This document shows, one piece after another, positions 49,751 through 64,000 of a stretch of 64,000 bases of DNA. Position numbers and translations under genes: made by a program. Under the pieces are notes generated by a model. That model made no database searches. It saw only the letters and a program-made list of their open reading frames with translations, and was not told the DNA's origin. Position 1 is the stretch's first letter; the number at the start of each line of letters is the position of its first letter. Origin of the DNA: Acidobacteriota bacterium (GTDB taxonomy: Bacteria; Acidobacteriota; Terriglobia; Acidiferrales; UBA7541). The stretch is from the NCBI GenBank assembly GCA_013289665.1, contig JABCZN010000009.1, positions 62,001 to 126,000 on the forward strand. The letters run 5' to 3'.

Positions 49751-51172
49751 ATGAAGACTAGTTATAACGGGGTGGCGGTGCCGGGGGATGGCAAGGGGAT
49801 CGGGTATGAAGGCGGCGCGCTGAAGGTGCCGGACAATCCGATTATTCCGTTTATTGAGGGCGACGGGACGGGGAGAGATATCTGGAAGGCGTCGCGGCGG
49901 GTGTTTGATGCGGCGGTGGAGAAGGCGTACGGGGGGAAGCGGCGCGTGGCGTGGTTTGAGGTGTTTGCGGGAGAGAAGGCGTTCAATACGTTCAAGCAGT
50001 GGCTGCCGGATGAGACGGTGGATGCGGCGCGGGATTTTCGGGTGTCCATCAAGGGGCCGCTGACTACTCCTGTGGGGGGCGGGATTCGTTCGCTGAATGT
50101 GGCGCTGCGGCAGATTCTGGATTTGTATGCTTGCGTGCGTCCGGTGCGGTATTTCCAGGGAGTTCCCTCCCCTGTTCGGGAGCCGGAAAAGATGGATGTT
50201 GTGATTTTCCGGGAGAACACGGAAGACGTCTACATCGGGATTGAGTGGAAGAGCGGAACGCCGGAAGTGAAGAAGTTGCTGGAATTTTTGAACAAGGAAA
50301 TGTTGAGCGGAGGGAAGAAACAGATCCGGATGGATTCGGGCGTGGGAATCAAGCCGATTTCGCCGTTTGGGACGAAGCGGCTGGTGCGGCGGGCGATTCA
50401 GTATGCGCTGGCACACAAGCGGCCGCTGGTGACGCTGGTGCATAAGGGGAACATTCAGAAGTTTACCGAAGGCGCGTTTCGCGATTGGGGCTATGAGCTG
50501 GCGGTGGAGGAGTTTCGCGCTGAGACGGTAACGGAGCGGGAAAGCTGGATTCTGGGCAATTTGGAGAAGAATCCGGAGCTTACAGTGGAACAAAACGCGG
50601 CGATGATCGAGCCGGGGTTGGAGCAGGCGACGGAGGAGTTTAAGAAGGCGATTTATGCCGAGGTGAAGCGGACTTTGGATGCAATTGAGAGCTCGCATGG
50701 GAAGGGCCAGTGGAAGAAGAAACTGATGGTGAATGACCGGATCGCGGATTCGGTGTTTCAGCAGATGCTGCTGCGGCCGAATGAGTACAGCGTGCTGGCG
50801 ACACCCAATTTGAATGGGGATTATTTGAGCGATGCTTGCGCGGCGCAGGTGGGGGGATTGGGGATTGCGCCGGGGTCGAATATTGGCGATGGGTATGGGG
50901 TGTTTGAGGCTACGCACGGGACGGCGCCGAAGTATGCGGATAAGGATGTGATTAATCCGAGTTCGGTGATGCTTAGCGGGGCGATGATGTTTGAGTTTAT
51001 GGGTTGGAAGGAAGCGGCGAAGTTGATTGAGGATGGGATAGCCAAGACGATCCAGCAGAAGAGGGTGACGTACGATTTGGAGCGGTTGATGACCGGCGGG
51101 ACGAAGTTGGGGACGAGCGCATTTGCGTCGGCGATTATTGAGAACATGGTGGGATTGGCGGCGGGGAGGTAG
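49751..51172 (+). CDS. icd: NADP-dependent isocitrate dehydrogenase
   Basis: A 473-residue TCA-cycle enzyme that converts isocitrate to 2-oxoglutarate. Motifs: [14 protein letters not shown], substrate loop [11 protein letters not shown] with the regulatory Ser, [33 protein letters not shown] and [20 protein letters not shown]. Slightly longer than the E. coli enzyme because of an extended region before PNLNGDY. It is followed at 51365 by mdh in the same direction, so TCA genes are clustered; repeats fill the 192-base gap. Confidence 0.95.
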
Positions 51173-51259
51173 TTGGAAAATGGAATTTGGAAAATAGAAA
51201 ATGGGAAGAGGGATCGTCACATAAAGGTCGGGCGTTCGTGGCCGATTGTTTACCACCGG

Positions 51260-51345
51260 GATGTGCGAACGTGGGATTTAACACAGAGTGCACTGAGGTA
51301 GGAACACGGAGTTCACAGAGTTTGGAAGAGAAGAAAAGAAGGAAT
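51260..51345. repeat. dispersed 'CGCAGAG'-family tract between icd and mdh
   Basis: TTTAACACAGAGTGCACTGAGG and GAACACGGAGTTCACAGAGTTTGG, a typical copy of the family. Confidence 0.55.
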
Positions 51346-51364
51346 TAGGACCGAGGAGAAGAAG

Positions 51365-52306
51365 ATGAGCAGGAAGAAGGTTACGGTGGTGGGTGGTGGA
51401 TTTGTGGGGTCGACTACGGCGCAGAGGATTGTGGATCTGGAGCTGGCGGATGTGGTGTTGACGGATATTTTGGAGGGGGCGCCCGCGGGAAAGGCGTTGG
51501 ATATGGTGGAGTCGACGCCAATTACGCGGACGGATTCGTTTGCTACGGGAATTTCCACGGCTAATGGAGATTACAGCGCTACGGCTGGCAGCGATGTGGT
51601 GGTGATTACGGCAGGATTTCCGCGGAAGCCGGGGATGAGCCGCGACGATTTACTGAAGGCGAATTACGACGTGGTGAAGGCGGTGGTGGAGCAGATTGTG
51701 AAGCACTCGCCAGACTGCATCATCGTGGTGGTGACGAATCCGCTGGATGCGATGGCGCAGGCGGCGTTTCGCGTGAGCGGGTTTCCGAAGAACCGCGTGC
51801 TGGGAATGGCGGGGGTACTGGATTCGGCGCGGATGAGCGCGTTTGTGGCGATGGAGTGCAAGGTGAGCGTGGAGAATGTGCACTCGTTTGTGCTGGGCGG
51901 GCATGGAGACGACATGGTGCCGCTACCACGGTATTCGACGGTGGCGGGAATTCCTTTGCCGGATTTGCTGCCGAAGGAACGGATTGACGCGATTGTGGAG
52001 CGGACGCGGAAGGGCGGCGCGGAAATTGTGAATTTGCTGAAGACGGGGTCGGCGTATTATGCGCCTTCGGCGGCGGCGGTGGAGATGGTGGAAGCGATTT
52101 TGAAAGACAAGAAGAAGATTCTGCCGTGCGCGGTTTATCTGGAGGGCGAGTATGGGATTAAAGGGTTGTTTGTTGGTGTGCCGGTGAAGTTGGGGGCGGG
52201 CGGCGCGGAAGAGATTATTCAGATTAAGTTGACGGCGGAGGAAAATGTGGCGCTGCAGAAGTCGGCGGGGAGCGTGAAGGAGTTGGTGGGAGTGTTGGGG
52301 ATTTAA
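51365..52306 (+). CDS. mdh: malate dehydrogenase
   Basis: A 313-residue NAD-dependent enzyme of the LDH/MDH superfamily. [12 protein letters not shown] is the nucleotide loop; [14 protein letters not shown] carries the arginines that select malate over lactate; VVTNPLDAM and the catalytic His in [10 protein letters not shown] follow. It oxidises malate to oxaloacetate in the TCA cycle. Length and motifs match the lactate-dehydrogenase-like bacterial MDH group. Confidence 0.95.
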
Positions 52307-52393
52307 CTGGAAGAAGGATGAGGAAATCGAAATAGCGAAGGATAGAAAACAGAGGCGCGCGTGGCAGGATAGATCGTTGACGAGCGTGAGGTT

Positions 52394-52825
52394 TTGGTGG
52401 ACTTCAGGAAGTTGCTTGGCTTTAAGACGATTTATGGGCCAGCGATATCGGTCGGCGTGCGGGATATGGAGCGAGCGGTCGCGTGGTACTGCGACAAACT
52501 GGAGCTCGACCACGAGCCGAAGAGAACCGACGTTTCCGAAGTGAAAATTGGATATCCCGGTGGGGAATTTGACCTAGTCCCCCTGATTCTTCTTGTGAAG
52601 ATTCCCGAAGGGCACAGTAATGTTTATGCAGGGCGTCATCCTGTAATTTTCACCAGAAGATTGCAGGAAGTGCATGAGAAACTTGCTTCCAACGGGATTG
52701 CAGTTGGAGCGATTGAGCAGGATTCGGCGGGAAATAGCTTTTTCAGATTTGTGGATTGCGAGGGAAACCAAATCGAAATTTGCCTTGAGCCAGGTCTACA
52801 GCCGCGATCTGGGGTGAATCGATAG
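52394..52825 (+). CDS. VOC-superfamily (glyoxalase/dioxygenase fold) protein
   Basis: A 143-residue protein. AISVGVRDMERAVAWYCDKLEL is the first beta-alpha-beta unit and GNSFFRFVDCEGNQIEICLEP the last, with the metal-ligand-type Glu at its end. Most such single-domain proteins bind a divalent metal; the substrate cannot be named. GTG start. Its base use is less G-skewed than its neighbours. Confidence 0.85.
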   Translation: MVDFRKLLGFKTIYGPAISVGVRDMERAVAWYCDKLELDHEPKRTDVSEVKIGYPGGEFDLVPLILLVKIPEGHSNVYAGRHPVIFTRRLQEVHEKLASNGIAVGAIEQDSAGNSFFRFVDCEGNQIEICLEPGLQPRSGVNR

Positions 52826-52884
52826 CTGGCACGGATTCAGGAGTGTTTACGCGAGAGAAAACGGGGATCATAGAAGAAGCAGCG

Positions 52885-53460
52885 ATGCGCCAGAAACTGC
52901 ACATTATATTCATTGCCGCGTTCACTGTGCTAGCAATAGCGGTGCTGAACGCTGCTGCGAGCCCGGCCGGGGAAACGTATAAGCAAAATGAGCAGGGGTT
53001 GGAGAAGCAGTTTGAGGGTTTTTTGAAGGCTTACCAGAGGGGCGATGACAAGGGGATGGACGAGAGTTTTGGCGTGTTTCGCTTGCCAAAAGCGAAGGAA
53101 TGGTTTGGGGAACATTTTTCGGCGGAGGATGCGGCGAAGCTGGTTGCCGCTTACGATCGGGAAATGAGCGAAGCGGAAGCTTCGCTGATTGAAGACATGA
53201 ACAAGGCGGATCCTGGGAGCCGGTTCCGGGTGCGATGTGAAGCTCGGGGGGACAGTGGCGCGGGGCAAGGCAGTACGGGAGGGTATGGTTTTAAACCGGT
53301 GAAGCCGATAGCTGTGGAACAGTTCCGGTTGGAGTTCCGGTCGGGGAGCCACGATCAGAAATTTTCGTTTATTGCGAATTTTGTTTATGTGGACGGGGCG
53401 TACCGGTTTGTGGGCGGGGGTGGAGTGGCGTTCTGGGCGAAGCCGGGGGCGGGGCGGTGA
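52885..53460 (+). CDS. exported protein of unknown function
   Basis: A 191-residue protein with a signal peptide (LHIIFIAAFTVLAIAVLNAAAS) and a helical then beta-rich body (GLEKQFEGFLKAYQRGDDKGMDESFGVFRLP, then FSFIANFVYVDGAYRFVGGG). The ending YVDGAYRFVGGG is common in small acidobacterial secreted proteins of unknown role. A perfect hairpin terminator follows 80 bases later. Confidence 0.65.
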   Translation: MRQKLHIIFIAAFTVLAIAVLNAAASPAGETYKQNEQGLEKQFEGFLKAYQRGDDKGMDESFGVFRLPKAKEWFGEHFSAEDAAKLVAAYDREMSEAEASLIEDMNKADPGSRFRVRCEARGDSGAGQGSTGGYGFKPVKPIAVEQFRLEFRSGSHDQKFSFIANFVYVDGAYRFVGGGGVAFWAKPGAGR

Positions 53461-53816
53461 GGGGCAGGGAGAGAACGGATAAAGAGAGAAAAAGATAACG
53501 CAGCGACGCTGAGAGCGCAGAGTTTCGCAGAGGAGAGTCGGAGGGGCACGCCCGATAACGTGCCCCTCTTTTTTTGTAGCGCCGCGTTTTTTCTGAGCGG
53601 CCTACAAAAAGGAAGAAAACATAAGAGCCAATCTGAAGATGGGCCACTACAGAAGAAGAACCCAAGAGGGCGGGTAAAGCCGCCCCTACGTCAGCGAAGA
53701 GAAACCCAAGAGCGGGCCGGGCGAGCCCGGCCCCTACAAGAGCGCGAGGACCCCAGGAGCGCAGCCAGGAATGGCTGTGCCACAAGAGGCGAAGAGCGCT
53801 GACATAAAAGTCAGCG
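53461..53816. repeat. terminator and dense repeat block
   Basis: After a CAGCGACGCTGAGAGCGCAGAG tract and the terminator at 53541 come several hairpin units in series: GGGCGGGTAAAGCCGCCCC (about 53670-53690), AAACCCAAGAGCGGGCCGGG and AGCCCGGCCCCTACA (53702-53738), and GGAGCGCAGCCAGGAATGGCTGTGCCACA (53755-53783). The second and third match insertions inside polX and ribF. Confidence 0.65.
53541..53575 (+). terminator. intrinsic terminator
   Basis: Perfect ten-base stem GAGGGGCACG/CGTGCCCCTC (53541-53550 and 53559-53568) with a run of T. Confidence 0.85.
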
Positions 53817-54902
53817 CTACAAGTGGAAGAGGCGGTCGGCGCCGATTACCAGGGCCAGGGTGAAGGCGGCGATGGCGATTTCGCCGATGAAACCTACGGC
53901 GAAGGGGCGGAGGCCTTGTAGGCGCATTTCGCGGAAGTTGGTGCGTAGGCCGACTCCGGCAAAGGTTAGGAGGAAGGCCCAGCGGGAGAGGTTGGCGAGG
54001 TTGGTGTTTTGGTCCTTGGTGAAGAAGCCGACTGTTGCCAGGACGGAGACTAGTAAAAAGCCCAGGACGAATTTCGGGAATTTTTGCCAGAGGAAGGCGG
54101 CTTTGTTGGTTACGGCTTGGGCTTGGCCGCGGCTGGCCCAGTAGATGGCGTAGGCGAGGACTACGAAGCCGATCAGGGCATTGCGGGTGGTTTTGACGAG
54201 GACGGCTAGTTTGGCGGCGGAGTCGGAGAAGAGGGCGCCGGCAGCGGTGGCTTCGGCGGTGTTGTCAACGGCGAGGCCGGCCCAGGCGCCGTAGGCGTGA
54301 TCGCTCAGATGGAGAGCGTGGCCGATTAGCGGGAAGGTGAAGAGGGAGAGGGCACCGAGGGCTAGGATGGCGGCTATGGCGAAGGAGGAGTCTTCGTCGT
54401 CGGCTTCGATGGCGCCTTTGGTGGCGATGATGGCGCTGACGCCGCAGACGGCGGAGCCGACTGCTAAAAGCGTGGTGAGTTTTGGGCGAAGGCGGAAGAG
54501 ACGGCCGAGGAAAGTCATGAAGGCTAGGGAGCCGGCGATTTCGATGAAGACGAGGAGCAGGCTTACGCTGCCGAGTTTCCAGACGTCGCCGAGCAAGAAG
54601 CGGGAGCCGAGGAGGACGATGCCGGCTTTTAGCCAGAATTCGTAGGTGGCGACGCCGGGTTTGAAGATTCTGGCGAGGCCGAAGATGTTGGAGATGGCCA
54701 GGCCGATGAGGATGGCCCAGAGGACGTATTCGATGTTGGGGATGGTCCAGTGGTGGGACTTGGCGTAGAGGTTGATATTTTTTTCAAGGAGTTTGCCGGC
54801 GAAGCCGATGACGGCGAGGAGGGCTACGCCGGGGATCAGGCGGAGGAATTTGGTGGAGATGGAGATGGGAGGATTTTGGGGGAGCGCGATGGAGTCGGCC
54901 AT
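53817..54902 (-). CDS. YeiH-type (UPF0324, putative sulfate exporter family) transporter
   Basis: A 361-residue protein with about ten helices. Family signatures are IGLAISNIFGLARIFKPGVATYEFWLKAGIVLLGSRFLLGD, ICGVSAI-type SAVCGVSAIIATKGAI and AVDNTAEATAAGALF. Members are annotated as putative sulfate exporters. It lies at the end of a sulfur-assimilation cluster read in the same direction, which agrees with a role in sulfur-anion transport but does not prove it. Confidence 0.9.
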   Translation of the reverse strand: MADSIALPQNPPISISTKFLRLIPGVALLAVIGFAGKLLEKNINLYAKSHHWTIPNIEYVLWAILIGLAISNIFGLARIFKPGVATYEFWLKAGIVLLGSRFLLGDVWKLGSVSLLLVFIEIAGSLAFMTFLGRLFRLRPKLTTLLAVGSAVCGVSAIIATKGAIEADDEDSSFAIAAILALGALSLFTFPLIGHALHLSDHAYGAWAGLAVDNTAEATAAGALFSDSAAKLAVLVKTTRNALIGFVVLAYAIYWASRGQAQAVTNKAAFLWQKFPKFVLGFLLVSVLATVGFFTKDQNTNLANLSRWAFLLTFAGVGLRTNFREMRLQGLRPFAVGFIGEIAIAAFTLALVIGADRLFHL

Positions 54903-55163
54903 GGTTTAGTTCCCTTCTGGTTTTGAAAATCGGATAACAGATAACAGTGAGCAGCGATCAGGAAGCGGTTGGTTGCTGAGTTTGTCGGCGTTGGTGCGCG
55001 AACAGCACCGCCGGGTTTCGTTTCGGTTGAGGTCCTTCGGCCATCCTTGTCGGATGGCCTCAGGCACTTTCAAACCTCTGGAGCACCCGGCTGGGCCACC
55101 TGAAGGTGACCGCTACACGGGGCGGAAAACCCCACCCTGAAAACAGCAGGGTGCGGCCCCCGC
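54903..55163. repeat. dispersed repeat block
   Basis: GGATAACAGATAACAGTGAGCAGCGATCAGG (54941-54971), a TTGAGGTCCTTCGGCCATCC and GGATGGCCTCAGG hairpin (55027-55065) nearly identical to that at 43308, CCACCTGAAGGTGACCGC (about 55097-55114) and a GGGTGCGG-family hairpin (55127-55157). Confidence 0.6.
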
Positions 55164-55295
55164 TTACCAGGGGATGCGATGGATTACGCCTGCGCGGATT
55201 AGGATGGCGGCGGCTAGGGCGATTAGGACGGCCCAGGTGTCCAGCGAGAGGCGTGGGTTGGTCTTGGCGGCGCTAGTCGAGTTGTCGTTCCTCAT
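55164..55295 (-). CDS. 43-residue single-helix membrane protein in the sulfur cluster
   Basis: ATG 55295 is preceded by AAGGAG with seven bases between. The frame reads a polar N-terminus (MRNDNSTSAAKTNPRLSLD), one hydrophobic helix (TWAVLIALAAAILIRAGVI) and HRIPW at the C-terminus. It lies between cobA and the YeiH-type transporter, same direction. The good ribosome binding site and helix make it a probable real small gene. Function unknown; a partner of the transporter or reductase is possible. Confidence 0.6.
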   Translation of the reverse strand: MRNDNSTSAAKTNPRLSLDTWAVLIALAAAILIRAGVIHRIPW

Positions 55296-55406
55296 TGTGT
55301 TTCTCCTTCGAAGAAAAATCTGCTTGCGGGAGTGAGTGCCGATTGGAAGAACGGCCCGGCCCCTACAAAAGCGAGAGAAGAAGGCGGTGTAAAGCCGCCC
55401 CTACAT

Positions 55407-56303
55407 TTAGGAGATGCGGACATTGGGGAGACCTCCTTCGACGGCGTCGTGGAAAAAGTCGTGGGTGCTTGCGGCATCGGACAGGGTGGCGCAGGCGTTG
55501 GCGGAGGCGGCTACTCGGCCTATTAGGAGTAGGGCGGGCGCGGGGAGCGGAGCGAGTTGATTGAGGCCAGCTACCGTTGTGGCTTGTTGCGATTGATCGG
55601 GGTGGGAGGCTCTGGAGATTACTAGAACGGGTGTCGCGGGGGAGACGGCGGCGTCCTGGAGCCAGCGGGAGGCTTCGGCATAATTGGGGCCGGGCATGTA
55701 GACGACTACCGTGGTGTCGGCGGTTAGGCCGATGCCGGGGAGGAACTTTGATTCGGGGGCGCGGGAGAAGGTGGTGAAGAGGACGTGGGAGGATAGGCGA
55801 CGATCGGTAAGGGAGACTTTTGCGGCTGCGGCTGCGCTGAAAGCGGCGGAGATGCCGGGGACTACTTCGAAATTGATTTTGGCTTCGCGGAGGGCTTGGA
55901 TTTCTTCGGCGGCGCGGCCGAACAGGAGGGGGTCGCCTCCTTTGAGGCGGACTACGATTTTGTGCTTTGCGGCGTTGGCGAGGAGGAGCGAGTTGATGTC
56001 TTGCTGGATCAGGAGGCGGAAGCCGGCTCGTTTGCCTACGTCGATTCGTTCGGCGGTGGGGGGGATTAGATTCAGGATTTCGGGGCCGATGAGGGAGTCG
56101 TGGAGAACTACGTCGGCGGATTGGAGGATGCGGAGGGCTTTGATTGTGAGGAGTTCGGGATCGCCGGGGCCGGCACCGATTAGGAAAACTTTGGAAGAAA
56201 AGTGGTGGCCAGCGGATGAGTCGGAGGAAGAAAAGTCAAAACCCGCACCCTGAAAATCAGAGGGTGCGGCACCTAGGGTTTTAGAATGGATGGGCTTGGA
56301 CAT
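55407..56303 (-). CDS. cobA: uroporphyrinogen-III C-methyltransferase with repeat-derived N-terminus
   Basis: A 298-residue SAM-dependent enzyme that makes precorrin-2, the precursor of siroheme. From residue 38 the family begins (KVFLIGAGPGDPELLTIKALRILQSADVVLHDSLIG), with VVRLKGGDPLLFGRAAEEI and VVPGISAAFSAAA. Residues about 8-37 (GAAPSDFQGAGFDFSSS region) are absent from the family and come from an in-frame copy of an intergenic repeat. Its start overlaps the stop of the precorrin-2 dehydrogenase gene (ATGA). Siroheme is the cofactor of the reductase upstream. Confidence 0.92.
   Translation of the reverse strand: MSKPIHSKTLGAAPSDFQGAGFDFSSSDSSAGHHFSSKVFLIGAGPGDPELLTIKALRILQSADVVLHDSLIGPEILNLIPPTAERIDVGKRAGFRLLIQQDINSLLLANAAKHKIVVRLKGGDPLLFGRAAEEIQALREAKINFEVVPGISAAFSAAAAAKVSLTDRRLSSHVLFTTFSRAPESKFLPGIGLTADTTVVVYMPGPNYAEASRWLQDAAVSPATPVLVISRASHPDQSQQATTVAGLNQLAPLPAPALLLIGRVAASANACATLSDAASTHDFFHDAVEGGLPNVRIS
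56224..56278. repeat. GGGTGCGGCACC-family repeat inside cobA
   Basis: 55 bases, 49 of them identical to 58276-58330 inside the sulfite reductase gene and read in the same frame. The core is a hairpin (CCGCACCCT and AGGGTGCGG). Intergenic relatives at 42053, 55127 and 57126. Confidence 0.85.
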
Positions 56304-56920
56304 CAGGCGGCTCCTTCGGAGTTGTCTGTAGAGGTGGCTTGTTTGAGGAAGCGTTCGAACATGGGCTTACTGGCCAGGATATGGAGACAATGCTTGGTGG
56401 CTTCGGGATCCTGAGATTGGGCGCGGAGGGCTTCGCGGGCGGCGCCTAGCCACGCAAGCCAGGATTCGTATTCGGGGCCGAATTGGTCTTCAAGTTCTTT
56501 GCGGAGGCGCTGGGCCAACGCGGGGCTTTTGCCGTTGGTGGAGATGGCGATTTGAAGATCGCCGCGCTGGACGATCGAACCGTAGTAGAAGTGGCAGTGG
56601 TCGATGTCGTCTACGGCGTTGCAGAGGATGGAGCGTCGGTCGGCTTCATTGTAGACGGCTGCGTTCAGGTCTCGGATCGAGGTGGCGGCGATTACGAGGA
56701 AGGCGCCGCAGAGATCGTTGGGTTCGAAGGGCTTGGGGGACCAGGTGATTTGTTGGTTGCGGACCCATTCGGCCAGTTGGGGGGCGAGTTTGGGGGAGAC
56801 TACGTGGACCTGGGCGCCGGCTTCGAGCAGGCCGGGAATTTTTTGGGCGGCGATCGAGCCGCCACCGACCACGAGGACTCGGCGGGAGTGAAGTTTCAGG
56901 AAAGCGGGGAAGAGGGACAT
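56303..56920 (-). CDS. precorrin-2 dehydrogenase / siroheme ferrochelatase (CysG N-terminal type)
   Basis: A 205-residue protein. Residues 1-110 form an NAD-binding fold (FLKLHSRRVLVVGGGSIAAQKIPGLLEAGA), followed by VDDIDHCHFYYGSIVQRGDLQIAISTNGKSPALAQRLRKELE, the signature of the Met8p/CysG dimerisation domain. It oxidises precorrin-2 and may insert iron to give siroheme. It is coupled by overlap to cobA, and the reductase gene is 262 bases upstream. Confidence 0.93.
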   Translation of the reverse strand: MSLFPAFLKLHSRRVLVVGGGSIAAQKIPGLLEAGAQVHVVSPKLAPQLAEWVRNQQITWSPKPFEPNDLCGAFLVIAATSIRDLNAAVYNEADRRSILCNAVDDIDHCHFYYGSIVQRGDLQIAISTNGKSPALAQRLRKELEDQFGPEYESWLAWLGAAREALRAQSQDPEATKHCLHILASKPMFERFLKQATSTDNSEGAA

Positions 56921-57182
56921 TAGGCGGGTCTCCAGGAGAGATTGAGAGAAGAAAGAAAAAATCTAACGCCGAGACGCACCGGGCGCAGAGAATGCGCCGA
57001 GGACAGCAAGAGCCCATCCTTCCCAAAAAGCGCAAAGGGCAAGCAACCGAGCGCAAGAGCAGAACAACCCGGGAGCCCCAGGAGCGGCTGTGCCACGGGA
57101 GATGGCGTTCGGGAAGCTAGGATAGAAAAACCCGCACCCCGAGAAAGGCAGGGTGCGGCACCCACGATTTTTTCTCTGATCG
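56921..57182. repeat. repeat block between sulfite reductase and precorrin-2 dehydrogenase
   Basis: AATCTAACGCCGAGACGCACC tract (56962-56983), AGAGCCCATCCTTCCC, AGCCCCAGGAGCGGCTGTGCCAC and a GGGTGCGGCACCC-family hairpin (57126-57163). The operon probably reads through. Confidence 0.55.
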
Positions 57183-58982
57183 TCATGGACGGTCCTCGAT
57201 GGAGTGAGGGACGCGATGGGCGGGGACGTCGCGGACGGCGAATTCGGTTTGGGCGGCGGGTTGGCCGGAGAGGATGGCGCGGAGGCTTTCTGTGGAGTGG
57301 CGTGCCAGGAATTTTTGCAGCGGCTCGCCCTGATGGCGATGGGCGTGGAAGTCGGCCAGGAGGCGCGTGATGGCGTTGGGGACTTCGTCGGCGAGGCAGC
57401 GGTAGCCTACAGGGCGGGCGATGGCGGCGAATTGGCCTACGCTGCCGCCTAGGCAGAAGTAGTAGGCGTCGATCATCTTTCCGTCTTGCTTGATTTTTTT
57501 GCCTTCAATGCCGATGTCGGCGATCCAGTGCTGGCCGCAGGAGTTGGGGCAGCCGGTGATGTGGAGCTTGAGGTCTTCCTGGTAGCCGGGGAAACGCTCT
57601 TCGAGCTGCTCGGTCAACCAGCGGGCGTAGGATTTGGTTTCGGTGAGAGCGAGTTTGCAAAATTCGGAGCCGGTGCAGGCTACCGTGCCGCGGACGAAGG
57701 CGTTGGTTTCCACCGGGAGGCCGTTGGCAACGAGTTCCTGGACGACAGAGTTGACGCGGGATTCGGAAATGTTGATTAGGAGAAGATTCTGCATGAGCGT
57801 GGCGCGGAGATGGCCGTCGCCATGATGTTCGGCCAGATCCGCGGCTAGGCGGATTTGTGCGGGAGTGATGCGTCCGCGGATTACGCTGGCGCCAATGCTG
57901 AAGAGGCCGGGCTGCTTTTGCGGGATGACGCCCAGGTGGTCGCGATGGATGGAGGCGGGGAGTTGTTCGGGAGCGGAGGGATCGAGTTTGTAGCCTAGCT
58001 TAGATTCGATGGCGGCTAAGAAGGAGTCCGCGGTCCATCCGTGTTGGAGGAAAAGGAATTTCAAGCGGGCCTTTTCGCGGGATTGGCGGAGGACTTCGCT
58101 TTCACGGAAGACTTCGGCGATGGCGCGGGCTACGGGGAGGACTTGTTCCCAGCGGATGAAGGCGTTTAGTCTTGCGGCGAGATGGGGTTCGGTGGAGAGG
58201 CCACCTGCGATGCGGACGGAGAAGCCGACGCCGGAGGGGTGGTGGTCAGGGGCCGGCGACCCGTGACCCGAGGAAGAGGAAGAAAAGTCAAAACCCGCAC
58301 CCTCAAAACCGGAGGGTACGGCACCCACGGATTTTCTGAGAGTGGCGGTGAAGGAGATGTCGTTGATTTCGGGGTAGGAGCACCAGTCGGGGCAGGCGGT
58401 TATGGTGATTTTGAATTTGCGCGGGAGATTGTAGAAGTCGGGATTGCCACCGAGTTCCTTATCCAAGGCAAGAGTTAGCGAGGAGACGTCGGCTAGTTCG
58501 TGGGAATGGATTCCCGCCAGGGGGCAGCCGGTTATGTTGCGGGTTACGTCGCCGCAGGCGCCGGTGGTGCGGAGGCCTACCGACCAGAGGCGTTCGAGAA
58601 GTTCCGGGAGATTTTCGACGCGGATCCAATGGAGCTGAACGTTTTGGCGGACGGTGATGTCGGCTACGCCGTTGCCGAACTGGTCTGAGAGATCGGCGAT
58701 GGCGCGGGCTTGTTCGCTGGTGAGGAGACCGTTGGGGATGCGAATGCGGACCATGAAGTAAGGGACGGCTTTGCCTTCACCGTTTTTGCCGCCGATTACG
58801 CCAACGCCGTCACCTTGGGTGTAAATGCCCCAGGGCCGGAAGTAGGTCCCCAGCCATTCGGGGGGAATGGAGTCGAAACCCTGGCGGGCGAATTGTCGGA
58901 TTTCGTCGAGGTGGTCCCACGGATTTTTGGCGCGTTTCAGGCGCTCGACGCGCTGGGCTTTGGTTTCTTTTAAGTCGGGCAT
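57183..58982 (-). CDS. siroheme-dependent ferredoxin-type sulfite/nitrite reductase with internal insertion
   Basis: A 599-residue protein with two ferredoxin-like and two siroheme-binding halves. The 4Fe-4S/siroheme cysteines are in VACTGSEFCKLALTETK and ITGCPNSCGQHW. N-terminal TVRQNVQLHWI and TGACGDVTRNITGCPLAG are typical. The family includes NirA/Sir enzymes, and sulfite versus nitrite cannot be settled by motifs; siroheme genes and a cysteine-rich leader peptide favour sulfite. Residues about 216-250 (VGAVPSGFEGAGFDFSSS, then a Ser/Gly/Pro/His run) interrupt a region that is normally continuous (ITACPDWCSYPEINDISF, then GVGFSVRIAGGLS). Confidence 0.92.
   Translation of the reverse strand: MPDLKETKAQRVERLKRAKNPWDHLDEIRQFARQGFDSIPPEWLGTYFRPWGIYTQGDGVGVIGGKNGEGKAVPYFMVRIRIPNGLLTSEQARAIADLSDQFGNGVADITVRQNVQLHWIRVENLPELLERLWSVGLRTTGACGDVTRNITGCPLAGIHSHELADVSSLTLALDKELGGNPDFYNLPRKFKITITACPDWCSYPEINDISFTATLRKSVGAVPSGFEGAGFDFSSSSSGHGSPAPDHHPSGVGFSVRIAGGLSTEPHLAARLNAFIRWEQVLPVARAIAEVFRESEVLRQSREKARLKFLFLQHGWTADSFLAAIESKLGYKLDPSAPEQLPASIHRDHLGVIPQKQPGLFSIGASVIRGRITPAQIRLAADLAEHHGDGHLRATLMQNLLLINISESRVNSVVQELVANGLPVETNAFVRGTVACTGSEFCKLALTETKSYARWLTEQLEERFPGYQEDLKLHITGCPNSCGQHWIADIGIEGKKIKQDGKMIDAYYFCLGGSVGQFAAIARPVGYRCLADEVPNAITRLLADFHAHRHQGEPLQKFLARHSTESLRAILSGQPAAQTEFAVRDVPAHRVPHSIEDRP
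58233..58337. repeat. repeat-derived insertion inside the sulfite reductase gene
   Basis: It contains the GGGTGCGG-family unit (58276-58330) and a CAGGGGCCGGCGACCCGTGACCC stretch related to the GGCCAGCGACCAGTGACCCG module at 43154. Net length is a multiple of three. Confidence 0.75.
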
Positions 58983-59073
58983 TGGTGGTGATGTTCCCTT
59001 TCAATCGCAGCGAACCCGAGAGCACAGGCAACAGGTGCCTTTGCCACACTTGCCGGCCGCTGCTAGAAAAGCC

Positions 59074-59122
59074 TGAACAAAAACGAAAAGCCCACGTTGC
59101 CGGTGATCTGGCACGTGGGCTT
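59074..59122 (-). terminator. attenuator hairpin in the sulfite reductase leader
   Basis: Read on the minus strand, AAGCCCACGTGCC (59122-59110) pairs with GGCAACGTGGGCTT (59101-59088, one bulged base) and is followed by TTCGTTTTTGTTC. It sits 24 bases after the stop of the leader peptide and about 90 bases before the reductase start, the place expected for a transcription attenuator. Confidence 0.75.
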
Positions 59123-59225
59123 CGAAGCTTAGAGTTCAAAAATATCTAGATTCGAAAGCACCTCTGGCCAGATCTCAGCAGCCGACAGCAACAGCAGGCT
59201 ACCGCGGCACGACAACAGATCTGGC
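59102..59225 (-). promoter_or_regulatory. alternative pairing segments of the leader
   Basis: On the minus strand three segments can pair in two ways. Segment 1 GCCAGATCT (59225-59217) pairs with segment 2 AGATCTGGC (59175-59167). Segment 2 can also pair over eight bases with GCCAGATC (about 59113-59106) in the 5' arm and loop of the attenuator hairpin. The cysteine codons lie between segments 1 and 2. A ribosome stalled there would cover segment 1 and free segment 2. The second pairing overlaps only the inner GCC of the terminator stem, so its strength is uncertain. Confidence 0.55.
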
Positions 59226-59238
59226 GAGAATTCATCAT
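59146..59238 (-). CDS. polycysteine leader peptide of the sulfite reductase operon
   Basis: ATG 59238 opens a 30-codon frame ending in TAG (59146-59148). It contains seven Cys codons at positions 8, 9, 15, 16, 17, 18 and 27, including a run of four (TGC TGT TGC TGT). The predicted transcription start (about 59241-59242) is only three or four bases before the ATG and no Shine-Dalgarno is present, so translation would be nearly leaderless. It precedes a terminator hairpin and then the sulfite reductase/siroheme genes. Polycysteine leaderless short frames act as cysteine-responsive attenuators in mycobacteria; by analogy this one should sense cysteine or Cys-tRNA supply. This is inference. Confidence 0.72.
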   Translation of the reverse strand: MMNSRQICCRAAVACCCCRLLRSGQRCFRI

Positions 59239-59247
59239 ATTCAAGAG

Positions 59248-59276
59248 AGGCTACGCGGTAAGGACAAGGATGTCAA
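59248..59276 (-). promoter_or_regulatory. predicted promoter of the sulfite reductase operon
   Basis: On the minus strand, TTGACA (59276-59271) is a perfect -35 and TAGCCT (59253-59248) a weak -10 with 17 bases between. The start site would be near 59241. Confidence 0.6.
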
Positions 59277-59519
59277 TCCGCGTGGCGGCTCAAATATTGG
59301 ATGCAGTGGATTGGGGATTTAGATACATGGAGAGGAGGAGGATAACAATCAGCAGATGACCGATAGCAGGAGGCGGGTGGTCGTGCCTTTGCCTGCGGAG
59401 GGGTTGATTGGTTGGCTGGGCCCTTCCGTCCTGGCGAGGCACGTCGCGGCCGGGATCTCGGAATGAAAGCCTACCCCAACAGAGCCGGGCAAGCCCGGCC
59501 CCTAGAACGGATTACGAGA
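59277..59519. other. gap between the sulfur cluster and the cyclophilin gene
   Basis: An ACAATCAGCAGATGACCGATAGCAGGAGGCGG repeat module lies near 59346-59377 and a GAGCCGGGCAAGCCCGGCCCC hairpin near 59482-59502. No gene seen. Confidence 0.45.
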
Positions 59520-60353
59520 TTATTGCTGGGGTTTGGGGGCGGTGGCGGTGCCTGGCTTGGCGGCAGGCTTGGCTGCGCCGGAGGGTTTGGCAGCGGGCTT
59601 GGCGGGGGCGGCGGCAGCGCCGATTAGGGTGGCGGATTTGATGATGTCGAGCTTGGGGTAGTGGGCGGCCAGGTATTTTTCACCGCCCTTGGTGATGTTT
59701 TCCTGGTCGTCTCCAGCGGCTGCGCCGTATTGGTCGTACAACAAGTCGACAACATTCATGCCATTACCATCCACAACCGCGAACGGAGCAAAACCCCCGG
59801 CGTCGAGAGATTGTGAAAGCTTCGGATTATCTCTGGAATTGTCCTGGAGATTGATGAACAGTTGCGTGGTCCGGGTGTTGGGGCCTGCGGTAGCAAAGAC
59901 CAGAGTGCCACGCTTGTTCTTCTGGGTGACGGGATCGTCCTTTATCGAAGCCTTTTCCCAGGCGGCGTTGACGGTGGGATCGGCGCTGAGGCCGAACTGG
60001 ACGACGAAGTTCGGGATGACGCGGAAGAAGCGGGCGTTGTCGAAATAGTGGTGCTTGACGAGATTGTAGAAACGGTCGGCGCCGAGGGGAGCCCAGGCGC
60101 GGGTGACTGTGACTGTGAATTCACCACTGGCATGATCGCGGTTTTCGGTAACAAATTTGACCTGGTAGGTTTCGGGGGCTTGGTCTTTTAGGAGGGCGGG
60201 TTTCAGGAGAGCGCGGTCGTAGGTGGGGGCGGCTGGTTTGGCGGCGGTGGTTGCGGTGGATTTGGGTTTGGTGGCAGGGGCTGGGGTTTGCGCGAGGGTG
60301 GGGATCGCGAGTGTGAGCGCGGCCAGGAGTTGCGCGCAGGTTTTCAGGTGCAT
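59520..60353 (-). CDS. secreted cyclophilin-type peptidyl-prolyl isomerase
   Basis: A 277-residue protein. Signal peptide (LLAALTLAIPTLAQ), a Pro/Ala/Lys-rich linker, and a cyclophilin domain (about 60-235) with RFYNLVKHHYFDNARFFRVIPNFVVQFG, which includes the catalytic Arg, and GTLVFATAGPNTRTTQLFINLQDN. The C-terminal 40 residues are an Ala/Pro/Lys-rich tail. It probably assists folding of exported proteins in the periplasm. Confidence 0.92.
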   Translation of the reverse strand: MHLKTCAQLLAALTLAIPTLAQTPAPATKPKSTATTAAKPAAPTYDRALLKPALLKDQAPETYQVKFVTENRDHASGEFTVTVTRAWAPLGADRFYNLVKHHYFDNARFFRVIPNFVVQFGLSADPTVNAAWEKASIKDDPVTQKNKRGTLVFATAGPNTRTTQLFINLQDNSRDNPKLSQSLDAGGFAPFAVVDGNGMNVVDLLYDQYGAAAGDDQENITKGGEKYLAAHYPKLDIIKSATLIGAAAAPAKPAAKPSGAAKPAAKPGTATAPKPQQ

Positions 60354-60660
60354 GGTTCGTCGGCCTCCGGTAAGTTTTGATGGGTGGTGATGGATGTTTG
60401 CGAGGATTAGTTTTGCATATTTTGGGGGGAAGAGGAAGGAACAGGGGAAAAAGAAAAAGATTTAGCACCGAGAACCGGGAGAGAGCGCACAGAGAAGAGG
60501 AAGAACGGAGTTTGGCGATGTCCGATGGCAAGAGCCCGCCCTTACAAACCAAGGGCACCCTCAAGGCCATCTGTTCCGTGGCGGAACGAAAAAAAAAACA
60601 AAGAGGGCGGCGCAAGGCCTGCCTCGGACAGGCAGGCCGCCCCTGGGTGTGCGTGGAGAA
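60354..60660. repeat. repeat block
   Basis: GATTTAGCACCGAGAACCGGG and AGAGCGCACAGAGAAGAGG tract (60460-60502), AGAGCCCGCCCTTACAAACC unit, and a GGCCTGCCTCGGACAGGCAGGCC hairpin (about 60618-60640). No gene. Confidence 0.55.
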
Positions 60661-61875
60661 TTATTTGTTCCGGTTGTGGCTTACTTGTTCGACTTCGGTT
60701 AGGACGCGCAGGGTGTTTTCGCCGAGAATTTTGCGGATGTCGGATTCGGAGTAGCCCTTTTTCAGGAGGGCGTCGGTGATTTGGGGAATGTGGGTGACGT
60801 CCTGCATGCCGAGGGGCATTACGGCGCCGTCGAAGTCGGAGCCGAGGCCTACGTGGTCGGCACCGACGATTTTTACGGCGTGGTCGATGTGGTCGACGAT
60901 GACGGTCCAGTCCACTTTGGGGAGCTTGCCGGCTTGCATGAAGTCGCGGACGACTTGATCGCCGGTGGTTAGTTTGCAGGCTTCGTTGTCGCCGCAGCGT
61001 TTTTTGACTTCTTCGTTAATTTCCTTTTCCGCTTCGGGGTGGGCTTTTTCGTAATCGCGGAATTCCTGGCTTAGGAAGCCGACGTGATAGTTGATCTGAA
61101 TTACGCCGCCATGTTTGGCGAGGTCGCGGATCATGTCGTCGGTCATGTTGCGGGGAGCCTGGCAGAGGGCACGGCAAGAAGAGTGCGAGCTGAAGATGGG
61201 GGCTTTGCTGGTTTCAAGCGCGTCGTAGAAGGTTTTGTCGGAGACGTGGGCGACGTCGACAATGATGCCGAGGCGATTCATTTCGCGGATTACGTCTTTG
61301 CCGAAGTCGGTCAGGCCGTTGTGGGCGGGCTTGTCGGTGGAGGAGTCGGCCCACTCGTTGTTGTCCATGTGGGTGAGGGTCATGTAGCGGACACCCAGGG
61401 CGGCGAAGGTACGGAGGACGGAGAGGTCGTTGCCCATCATGTGGCCGCCTTCAACACCCATGAGGACGGCGATTTTGTGCTGCTTTTTGGCTTCGCGGAT
61501 GTCAGCGGCGGAGGTGGCGAGCAGCAATTGGTCGGGATTTTTGCGGACAGTTTCGCGGACGGCGTCGATTTGATCGATGGCTTGCTTGACGGCATCGGGG
61601 CCTGTGATTTTGCTGGAGATCCAGATGGAGAAGAAGATGGCGGAGAGGCCGCCTTCTTTCATGCGAGGGATGTCTATGTTGCCGTCGTTATGGCGGACGG
61701 AGAGATCGAATCCGGGGTCGAGGAGGCGCTGGGTGGTGTCGTCGTGGGTGTCGATGACGATGGAAGTCGATTGGAGCCTTTTGGCTTGGTCGGAGATCGA
61801 TTGGGTGGCGGCGAGGCTGGGCATGATTAAGAGTAGCAGAAGCGAGACGAAGAGAGATCCTGGTGGGCGATGCAT
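60661..61875 (-). CDS. membrane dipeptidase (peptidase family M19), exported
   Basis: A 404-residue zinc dipeptidase of the renal dipeptidase type. A signal peptide (LFVSLLLLLIMPSLAATQ) is followed by the metal motif IDTHDD, the bridging Glu in LMGVEGGHMM, THMDNNEWADS, HSSCRALCQAPRNMTDDMIR and GLGSDFDGAVMP. It hydrolyses dipeptides, including D-containing ones, in the periplasm. Monocistronic. Confidence 0.93.
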   Translation of the reverse strand: MHRPPGSLFVSLLLLLIMPSLAATQSISDQAKRLQSTSIVIDTHDDTTQRLLDPGFDLSVRHNDGNIDIPRMKEGGLSAIFFSIWISSKITGPDAVKQAIDQIDAVRETVRKNPDQLLLATSAADIREAKKQHKIAVLMGVEGGHMMGNDLSVLRTFAALGVRYMTLTHMDNNEWADSSTDKPAHNGLTDFGKDVIREMNRLGIIVDVAHVSDKTFYDALETSKAPIFSSHSSCRALCQAPRNMTDDMIRDLAKHGGVIQINYHVGFLSQEFRDYEKAHPEAEKEINEEVKKRCGDNEACKLTTGDQVVRDFMQAGKLPKVDWTVIVDHIDHAVKIVGADHVGLGSDFDGAVMPLGMQDVTHIPQITDALLKKGYSESDIRKILGENTLRVLTEVEQVSHNRNK

Positions 61876-62161
61876 GGGGCTCCTTTGGAATTTGGAATTA
61901 GTAGAGTAGCAGAAGCGTTAAGGGTTGAAAGTTCGAAGTTGAAGCAGGGAGATTAAGGATAACGCTCGGACGCCCCGACCGGGTCGGGGTGAACCCCGGA
62001 CGCCCGGGATTCGCAGCGAAGGGGAAGAGCAGGAATTGGCTGCTGTGGGAGCATCAGAGCCCACCCTTTCGGAGACACCGCAAGCGTTGGGGCGCCCTCA
62101 AGCGCATGGATCCGCTCACGTGTAGACATGAGCGGAAGCGCACAGGCTAGAGCCTCTGCTC
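61876..62161. repeat. repeat block
   Basis: GGATAACGCTCGGACGCCCCGACC and GGTCGGGGTGAACCCCGGACG tract (61957-62003) and an AGAGCCCACCCTTTCGGAGAC unit (62059-62079). A CATGTCTACACG hairpin-like stretch lies near 62118. No gene. Confidence 0.5.
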
Positions 62162-62911
62162 CTAGCCGAGGAGCCAGCCGACGAGGGATTGTTTCCAGGC
62201 TTCGCGGTTTACTTCGGCTATCGATTCGGTCAGGGGGATGGCTTTGGGGCAGGCTTGGACGCAATTTTGGACGTTGGCGCATTCTTCGATGCCGCCTTCG
62301 CCCTGGAGGGCCCGGATGCGCTCCTTGGCGTGCATGGCGCCAGTGGGGTGCATATTGAAGAGGCGGACCTGGCTGATGATGGCGGCGCCAACGAAATTGT
62401 TGCCGGAGTTTACTTGCGGGCAGACTTCGAGGCAGAGGCCGCAGGTCATGCAGCGGGAGAGCGGGTAACCTTTTTCCTGGATTTCAGGGGCAACGCGGGG
62501 ACCTTCGCCGAGGCTGTAGGTGCCGTCAATGGGGATCCAGGCTTTTACGCGCTGGAGGGAATCGAACATGAACTGGCGATTGACAGCGAGGTCGCGAACG
62601 ATCGGGAACTTGGTCATCGGCTCGATGGTGATTGGTTGCGTGAGCTGATCGACGAGGGCAGAGCAGGCCATTTTGACTTTGCCGTTGATGACCATGGCGC
62701 AGGAGCCGCAGACTTCTTCAAGGCAGTTGGAGTCGTAGGAGACGGGAGTGGTTTTTTTGCCGTCGCGGGTGACGGGATTTTCGGCGATGTCACGGAGGCA
62801 GATGATGATGTTCATGGAGGGGCGCCAGCGGAGGGAAAATTCTTCCCAGTGGGCGGGTTGGCCCGGGGAGGATTGGCGTTTGATTTTGAGTATTACTTTT
62901 TTTTCGGCCAT
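62162..62911 (-). CDS. sdhB: succinate dehydrogenase iron-sulfur subunit
   Basis: A 249-residue subunit. The 2Fe-2S ligands are in CLEEVCGSCAMVINGKVKMAC, the 4Fe-4S ligands in CMTCGLCLEVCP and the 3Fe-4S/4Fe-4S set in CANVQNCVQACP. It passes electrons from the flavoprotein to quinone in complex II. It is the second gene after sdhA, 116 bases away, with one hairpin repeat (GGGCGGGGCAAGCCCCGCCCC) between them. No membrane anchor gene is visible downstream. Confidence 0.95.
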   Translation of the reverse strand: MAEKKVILKIKRQSSPGQPAHWEEFSLRWRPSMNIIICLRDIAENPVTRDGKKTTPVSYDSNCLEEVCGSCAMVINGKVKMACSALVDQLTQPITIEPMTKFPIVRDLAVNRQFMFDSLQRVKAWIPIDGTYSLGEGPRVAPEIQEKGYPLSRCMTCGLCLEVCPQVNSGNNFVGAAIISQVRLFNMHPTGAMHAKERIRALQGEGGIEECANVQNCVQACPKAIPLTESIAEVNREAWKQSLVGWLLG

Positions 62912-63027
62912 GAGTCCTCGGTCAGGAAATAATCAGCAATCTGCAAAACGCGATCATCGAACAGATAACAGCGATCAGGAAACGGGCTTGGGCGGGGCAA
63001 GCCCCGCCCCTAGAAAAGCAAAGAATT

Positions 63028-64000
63028 CTATTTCGCGGCGTCGTATTTGCGGACGCGCGGGGGAATTAGCGAGATGTCGACCGGCTCGTAAGTTAGTTGG
63101 ATATCGCCATTTTTGAATTTGGCGCGGGTGGTTTTGAGCCAGTTGGCATCGTCGCGTTCCGGGAAATCTGGTTTGTAGTGGGCGCCGCGGGATTCGTTGC
63201 GGGCGAGGGCGCCCAGAGTGACCACGCGGGCGAGGAGGAGCATGTTTTCGAGTTCGCGCGCGAAGTTCAGGGTTTGATTGGACCACCTGGTGCGGTCGCT
63301 CAGATTGATTTTGCGATAGCGGGTTTGGAGGGCGCGAAGCTGGCTGTCGGCTAGTTCGAGATTTTTGTTGATGCGAGTTACGGTGACGTGCTCGGTCATG
63401 ATCTCGCCCATTTCCTTCCAGATGGTCATGGGGTTTTCGGCGCCGTCTTGACTGAGGAGGGCCTGGTTTTTTTCGTCCTGGCGTTTCTTTTCGCTGTCGA
63501 AGATGGTGGAGGGAACGGAGGCAGTTCCCTTCTCGAGATTGTTGGAGTATTTAACCGCGGCAGTGCCTGCGATACCGCCGCCAAAGATGCAGCTGACTAA
63601 CGAGTTAGCGCCGAGACGATTGGCGCCGTGATACTGGTATTCACATTCGCCGGCGGCGTAGATGCCGGGCACATTGGTGGCTTGATCTACCGCATTGATC
63701 CAGATGCCGCCCATGGTGTAGTGCATGCCGGGAAAAACTTTCATGGGTTCTTTGCGGGGATCCACGCCGCAGAATTTTTCGTAGATTTCGAGGATGCCTT
63801 CGAGCTTGCGGTCGAGAGTTTCGCTGTCTATATGGGAGACGTCGAGATAGACGGCGGCCTGGCCGTTGATGCCGAGTTTTTCCTGATAGACGATGCGGTG
63901 GATGGCGCGCGTGGCGATGTCGCGCGGAACGAGATTACCGTATTTCGGATACCACTCTTCGAGGAAGTAGAAGCGCTCGCTTTCGGGAATAGATTTTGCG
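63028..64000 (-). CDS. sdhA: succinate dehydrogenase flavoprotein subunit, C-terminal part
   Basis: The frame is open to the right edge, so the N-terminal FAD-binding region lies outside the window (about 323 codons present). MHYTMGGIWINAVDQATNVPGIYAAGECEYQYHGANRLGANSL is the conserved capping/FAD region with the substrate-binding His and Arg. The C-terminal helical domain follows (NLELADSQLRALQTRYRKINLSDRTRWSNQTLNFARELENML). It oxidises succinate to fumarate and transfers electrons to SdhB. Confidence 0.93.
   Translation of the reverse strand, partial: AKSIPESERFYFLEEWYPKYGNLVPRDIATRAIHRIVYQEKLGINGQAAVYLDVSHIDSETLDRKLEGILEIYEKFCGVDPRKEPMKVFPGMHYTMGGIWINAVDQATNVPGIYAAGECEYQYHGANRLGANSLVSCIFGGGIAGTAAVKYSNNLEKGTASVPSTIFDSEKKRQDEKNQALLSQDGAENPMTIWKEMGEIMTEHVTVTRINKNLELADSQLRALQTRYRKINLSDRTRWSNQTLNFARELENMLLLARVVTLGALARNESRGAHYKPDFPERDDANWLKTTRAKFKNGDIQLTYEPVDISLIPPRVRKYDAAK

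Follow-up and report, generated by a model that had tools for sequence, protein, structure and literature searches.

A putative ribosome-mediated, cysteine-sensing attenuator upstream of sulfite reductase genes in Acidobacteriota

Organization of the sir locus

The window, by which we mean the whole 64,000-nucleotide stretch analysed, carries on its minus strand a gene for a siroheme reductase (sir) followed by siroheme-synthesis genes and preceded by a short Cys-rich frame (Table 1). Matches to NIR_SIR, TIGR01470 and TIGR01469 bear out the preliminary description of this DNA, which had placed sulfite reductase and siroheme genes 3' of the leader. The best solved relative of the sir product, a member of the NIR_SIR family, is M. 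tuberculosis NirA (1zj8), which we take to be a sulfite reductase containing a Tyr-Cys bond; the Tyr and Cys aligned to 1zj8 appear to be retained, and the protein passed no NCBIfam equivalog cut-off. Since genes for a CysG N-terminal domain protein and a uroporphyrinogen methyltransferase lie 3' of sir, the operon makes both the enzyme and its cofactor. An 88-codon frame between the downstream genes has no family match.

The TTGACA-17-TAGCCT promoter, the 30-codon frame with seven Cys codons, four of them consecutive (CCCC), and the terminator had likewise been noted beforehand, and all are present on the minus strand. The -10 box is weak, agreeing with TATAAT at three of six positions, and transcription would be expected to start at about 59241–59240, 2–3 nt 5' of the leader ATG. 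Within the 400 nt upstream of sir, six Cys fall in 12 codons of a start-to-stop frame, a density equalled by none of 3000 dinucleotide shuffles, and the leader folds with a z-score of -4.9. A generic promoter and terminator scan of the window listed neither at the leader because its rules are stricter than these sites, and riboswitch, T-box and leader families of Rfam 15 gave no match at gathering score in positions 50000–64000.

Table 1. Features of the sir locus in window coordinates
Feature	Position	Strand	Remarks
-35 box TTGACA	59271..59276	minus	read from sequence
-10 box TAGCCT	59248..59253	minus	17 nt from TTGACA, 9 nt before ATG
Leader peptide frame MMNSRQICCRAAVACCCCRLLRSGQRCFRI	59146..59238	minus	ATG at 59238, stop TAG 59148-59146
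Segment 1 (protector arm) GCCAGATCT	59217..59225	minus	5' of Cys run; base-paired to segment 2 when the leader is free
Sensor run, four Cys codons TGC TGT TGC TGT	59185..59196	minus	
Further leader Cys codons	59217-59212 and 59160-59158	minus	
Segment 2 AGATCTGGC	59167..59175	minus	3' of Cys run; CTGG starts 13 nt after the run, and 18 nt lie between CTGGC and the stop
Segment 3 GCCAGATC	59105-59112	minus	inside terminator hairpin
Antiterminator, GAUCUGGC with GCCAGAUC, inner helix GCUU(U)CGAA with UUCGAAGC	59105..59174	minus	predicted by folding
Intrinsic terminator	59079..59121	minus	hairpin 59121-59089 holding segment 3, then U tract TTTTCGTTTTT to 59079
NirA/SirA-type siroheme [4Fe-4S] reductase (sir), probably sulfite reductase	57183..58982	minus	family and structure matches
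Precorrin-2 dehydrogenase / CysG N-terminal domain protein	56303..56920	minus	TIGR01470 above cut-off
Uroporphyrinogen-III C-methyltransferase	55407..56303	minus	TIGR01469 above cut-off

Conservation of the leader frame and its promoter

Absence of the Cys codons from relatives had been named in advance as what would speak against a cysteine leader. The comparison set held 80 sir relatives (69 from Acidobacteriota and 11 from Rokubacteria/Methylomirabilota, assigned by record title; 81 sequences with the window), whose upstream regions were searched with nested starts allowed. A Cys-rich leader was found at 67 of the 70 Acidobacteriota sir loci, window included, and at none of the 11 Rokubacteria/Methylomirabilota loci; the 68 leader-like frames among all 81 sequences include the zinc-ribbon fragment of L029. 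The Acidobacteriota loci lacking a leader are L072, L073 and L051, the last with just 65 nt upstream to inspect, and L036 and L079, with few Cys or no promoter, are less typical of the 67. These two were omitted, together with L037 and L071, from the alignments and the ribosome-placement folding described below. In five Rokubacteria/Methylomirabilota sequences (L029, L058, L059, L065, L069) sir is preceded instead by a short CPxC-type, zinc-ribbon-like frame.

The enrichment in Cys is well above control levels. At least four Cys within 12 codons of a start-to-stop frame occur in 61 of 80 upstream regions of 400 nt (the window and 79 relatives in which 200 nt or more precede sir). That density is reached by 3.2% of 4000 dinucleotide shuffles, by the reverse strand in 2 of 80 cases and by 8 of 375 stretches taken from elsewhere in these loci; in L007, a near relative of the window, the best 12 codons hold only three. 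Cys occupies the four positions of the window's sensor run in 76–89% of 62 anchored leaders, and TGY triplets 5' of segment 2 number 379 in frame versus 96 and 60 in the other two frames. The three core Cys codons are TGT in 40, 41 and 40 of 42 leaders, and individual leaders carry up to 10 Cys. By its predicted translation, the leader is a short frame with repeated codons for the end product of the pathway. Residues outside the Cys run vary, and the C-terminal SGAGRLLT is conserved. Silent sites of its TCT GGC (segment 2) and CTG CTG (inner helix) codons are almost fixed, other positions being variable, so that the conserved ending reflects the RNA.

Placement of the promoter is similarly conserved. 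A strict TTGAC/16-18/TAnnnT promoter lies 6–13 nt before the start codon in 56 of 67 leaders, but before only 5 of the 1121 remaining start codons in these regions, and an SD-like motif precedes the start in 3 of 67. Thus, leaderless or nearly leaderless initiation is probably a conserved property of Acidobacteriota sir leaders. Leaderless genes make up 13.3% in three Acidobacteria genomes, according to the relevant passage of PMC3160421.

A box ATSSAAWNTWT (for example in L031 and L043) lies some 75 nt 5' of the leader start, near promoter position -65, with 27 matches in the 67 upstream regions versus 0.1 expected from base shuffles; similar letters occur in the window near 59303-59290. The box is possibly a transcription-factor site or an UP element.

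Terminator, antiterminator and protector pairing

Between the leader and the first gene, 61 of 67 leaders have an intrinsic terminator of -12 kcal/mol or better, as does one of 67 shuffles, and the terminator pairs covary, with a score attained by none of 500 shuffles. In the window its hairpin has an energy of -21.5 kcal/mol in the terminator scan, and the terminator folded alone reaches -24.6 kcal/mol (z -4.46). The alternative pairing around the Cys codons suggested at the outset could be traced to segments AGATCTGGC, GCCAGATCT and GCCAGATC: the free window leader up to segment 3 folds as 1:2, and the part beyond a stalled ribosome folds as a 2:3 antiterminator of -26.6 kcal/mol (z -4.42), which none of 200 shuffles equalled. 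When a ribosome is placed on the Cys run in the fold calculation, segment 2 pairs with segment 3 in 59 of 61 leaders, a set that omits L027 and L062, in which no segment 3 is found by rule.

The spacing of these elements is tightly constrained. Downstream of its A-site codon a ribosome covers about 13 nt, and exactly 13 nt separate the last Cys run from CTGG in 42 of 63 leaders, with 18 nt between CTGGC and the stop in 55 of 63. Folding and geometry together describe a mutually exclusive antiterminator that stalling would free, with weak covariation. In alignment A2, which holds 42 of the 53 clade-B leaders (L017 and ten others were omitted), paired cells of the antiterminator amount to 87.9%; column shuffles give 87.2%, and 59 of 500 of them score as high. 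The excess is kept small by the near invariance of the columns, and when the register is slid at most 58% of cells pair.

Formation of the terminator when cysteine is replete may be achieved in more than one way. A CCAG segment 1 is found before the Cys run by a simple rule in just 26 of 61 leaders, so the protector arm is not universal, and in the other leaders the replete state probably depends on a ribosome that has reached the stop codon and covers the inner helix. With no ribosome at all, the antiterminator forms in the folds of 25 of 61 partial transcripts, whence untranslated leaders of this kind would read through.

Further leaders and exchange of sensor codons

A covariance model (R1) built from 42 clade-B leaders, the window leader not among them, recovers the latter at 35.1 bits and matches none of the 11 Rokubacteria/Methylomirabilota loci. 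It also revealed in the window genome a second, stronger leader, MSLDFRERQTVASTCCRCRAFVSSGTGRLVI (81.8 bits), which stands 38 nt 5' of an operon of CysD-CysN-CysH-like type that includes a TauE-type exporter. Across the class, 89 of 200 genomes have an R1 match, a tally inflated as a count of Cys leaders in that matches limited to model positions about 122–162 are terminators, those inspected belonging to Thr leaders; matches including segment 2 occur in at least 74 of the 200 genomes (hand count, among the matches listed), and nine genomes have terminator-only matches. At 69 distinct sites picked from the best matches (L158, a duplicate, and L098, at a contig edge, were omitted), 63 leaders have at least three Cys per 12 codons, and the next gene (asd, ilvB and aspartokinase being named by reading the proteins) is sir-like in 15, cysD in 13, a two-domain rhodanese in 12, a small rhodanese in five, a TonB-type outer-membrane protein in four, a peroxiredoxin, TauE or siroheme gene in three each, asd or ilvB in two each, an aspartokinase in one and another gene in six. 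R1 matches extend to 18 of 247 genomes in the wider phylum. Eight of these lie outside the class, and poly-Cys leaders there stand before cysH in family f30, before a uroporphyrinogen methyltransferase in f22 and before a cysteine-synthase-like PLP enzyme in f95; at least two of these eight matches (L171, L172) were rejected as hairpins beside a likely tRNA. Two plain sequence patterns were rejected. A four-Cys-codon pattern gave 57 matches over the window genome (16 forward, 41 reverse) versus 28 for the backward control and is too unspecific, and a strict phylum pattern, found in 8 of 396 genomes, all eight from families f30 and f95, misses the window genome's own leaders.

Exchange of the sensor codons within one scaffold is suggested by the terminator-only R1 sites. 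Four of the five read have Thr-rich leaders, such as MMTTFTKRITSTKSMSTTSTTTTSTILASGAWRNS; at the fifth, L208, a full-length Cys leader precedes a methyltransferase. Further sites, from which L215 was omitted as too short a stretch, carry Thr-rich codons in the same scaffold in 19 of 19 cases, the leader being chosen, without a shuffle control, as the frame richest in Thr. Seventeen of the 19 precede a protein with KFGGS/T, which we take to be an aspartokinase-like motif, one precedes a semialdehyde-dehydrogenase-like protein and the remaining one has no assignment; the one aspartokinase candidate checked in Pfam matched AA_kinase. At L205-L207, L209-L214, L216-L229 and L137, aspartokinase-like genes are preceded by Thr/Ile-rich leaders that share this terminator scaffold. 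Two ilvB leaders (L133, L144) carry IVVVRLV in a similar scaffold, and a leader with MCCMAMPM before a PLP enzyme of Cys/Met metabolism (L165) is possibly a Met/Cys sensor.

The downstream pathway follows the leader codon, as ribosome-mediated attenuation predicts. We incline slightly to the view that one leaderless scaffold is a general platform for amino-acid control in Acidobacteriota, its 3' part (segment 2, the SG-containing peptide end and the terminator) being kept and its sensor codons exchanged. Cys codons would serve sulfur assimilation, rhodaneses, peroxiredoxin and outer-membrane transporters, Thr/Ile codons aspartokinase, Val/Ile codons ilvB, and Met/Cys codons the Cys/Met PLP enzyme. 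The outcome would be a multi-operon regulon with no dedicated transcription factor. Thr codons in the same scaffold also provide a natural codon-swap comparison.

Proposed mechanism and its alternatives

The leader is very probably a ribosome-mediated transcription attenuator that senses charged tRNA-Cys, as the layout had first suggested and as the conserved pairings, the terminator and the near-leaderless promoter support. This reading is built on sequence anatomy, conservation and energies, from which we infer the start site, stalling, read-through and cysteine response. Transcription would begin 0–3 nt before the leader ATG, and a ribosome would thereby load at the 5' end without a Shine-Dalgarno site. 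With ample Cys-tRNA it would reach the stop codon and cover the inner helix of the antiterminator, segment 2 would be covered or re-paired with segment 1, and the terminator would form, ending transcription before sir. With Cys-tRNA scarce, the ribosome would stall on the Cys run and cover segment 1, its leading edge halting immediately before segment 2, which lies about 13 nt off; segment 2 could then capture segment 3 as it is transcribed, the 2:3 pairing would block the terminator, and sir and the siroheme genes would be expressed. The sulfite-reduction genes thus appear to be on only when ribosomes run short of cysteine at the leader.

It is quite unlikely that the leaders act by translation attenuation of the mycobacterial kind, in which stalling on the Cys codons would expose the sir ribosome-binding site and the hairpin would not be a terminator. 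Mycobacterial leaderless polycysteine frames are reported, in the passages of PMC9031893 and PMC13236596 that deal with them, to act on translation of the downstream gene, and at L039, L047 and L061 the sir match starts only 63–66 nt after the leader stop, right behind the U tract. However, a stable hairpin with its U tract accompanies 61 of 67 leaders, which does not fit translational control lacking an intrinsic terminator; moreover, segment 3 sits in the terminator arm and not on an SD site, and in the window about 100 nt separate the end of the hairpin from the start of sir.

We consider it very improbable that the peptide itself is the active species, for example as a small Cys-rich metal- or redox-binding protein whose codons are not a sensor. 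The frame is indeed conserved and Cys-rich, and some targets (rhodanese, peroxiredoxin) are redox genes, but the variable residues outside the Cys run, the coincidence of SGAGRLLT with pairing RNA conserved at silent sites, and the Thr-rich codons in the same scaffold before threonine-pathway genes all point away from such a role. A metabolite riboswitch, or an ordinary intergenic terminator with a Cys-rich frame beside it by chance, is scarcely credible. No positive support was found for this reading, the empty Rfam search being neutral either way: the shuffle result and the fixed geometry oppose chance, already refuted by conservation, and the leader has its own promoter 3' of the upstream isomerase gene, which ends at 59520.

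Relation to known attenuators

The trp, his and thr attenuators of enterobacteria follow a 1:2, 2:3, 3:4 segment logic with the sensor codons between segments 1 and 2, and their leader peptides are SD-led. Attenuation as proposed here shares this logic and the placement of sensor codons, but ribosomes would initiate at the 5' end or close to it, and a single scaffold accommodates Cys, Thr and apparently Val/Ile sensors. Another related system is the uORFC-8-2 motif before cysS in Rhodobacterales, for which the section of PMC8632094 devoted to it reports a terminator and proposes ribosome-mediated transcription attenuation. Like the Acidobacteriota leaders, it combines tandem Cys codons in a short uORF with hairpins and a U run at the end; as characterized in that section, however, uORFC-8-2 has two Cys codons and is confined to cysS and one alphaproteobacterial order, whereas the Acidobacteriota leaders have up to 10 Cys, are probably leaderless or nearly so and precede many sulfur operons. 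The window leader, lying before sir, falls outside the motif, which is defined by a place before cysS with that consensus, and in the stretch read at the window genome's cysS no such leader is seen.

Leaderless polycysteine short ORFs were described in mycobacteria by Canestrari et al. 2020 (as cited in PMC9031893, PMC9094748 and PMC13236596), the last presenting them, where it discusses them, as translation attenuation, and the actinobacterial Cys leaders of Seliverstov et al. 2005 are without conserved terminators in the relevant part of PMC1262725. To the extent of these accounts, the common ground is a Cys-rich frame before sulfur-assimilation genes, in Acidobacteriota probably leaderless or nearly so, with cysteine availability as the proposed signal; apart from the phylum, the Acidobacteriota leaders differ in conserving an intrinsic terminator and an antiterminator segment. 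Within open PMC full text, to which most subscription journals do not belong, no Cys-leader attenuation in Acidobacteriota was found described, in agreement with the preliminary statement that none was known. Attenuation by Cys codons is already known as a kind, and its terminator-bearing, probably leaderless form in Acidobacteriota would join leaderless initiation and intrinsic termination in one attenuator.

Acidobacteriota attenuators were noted in 2010 with almost no assigned function, as far as the pertinent passage of PMC2965389 goes, and a signal, a mechanism and target genes can now be proposed for a large set of them, amounting to a predicted cysteine regulon in an abundant, little-studied soil phylum. 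Cys leaders also precede genes for outer-membrane receptor, porin and FadL-type proteins (L093, L094, L127, L147, L097, L151), which may take up sulfur compounds.
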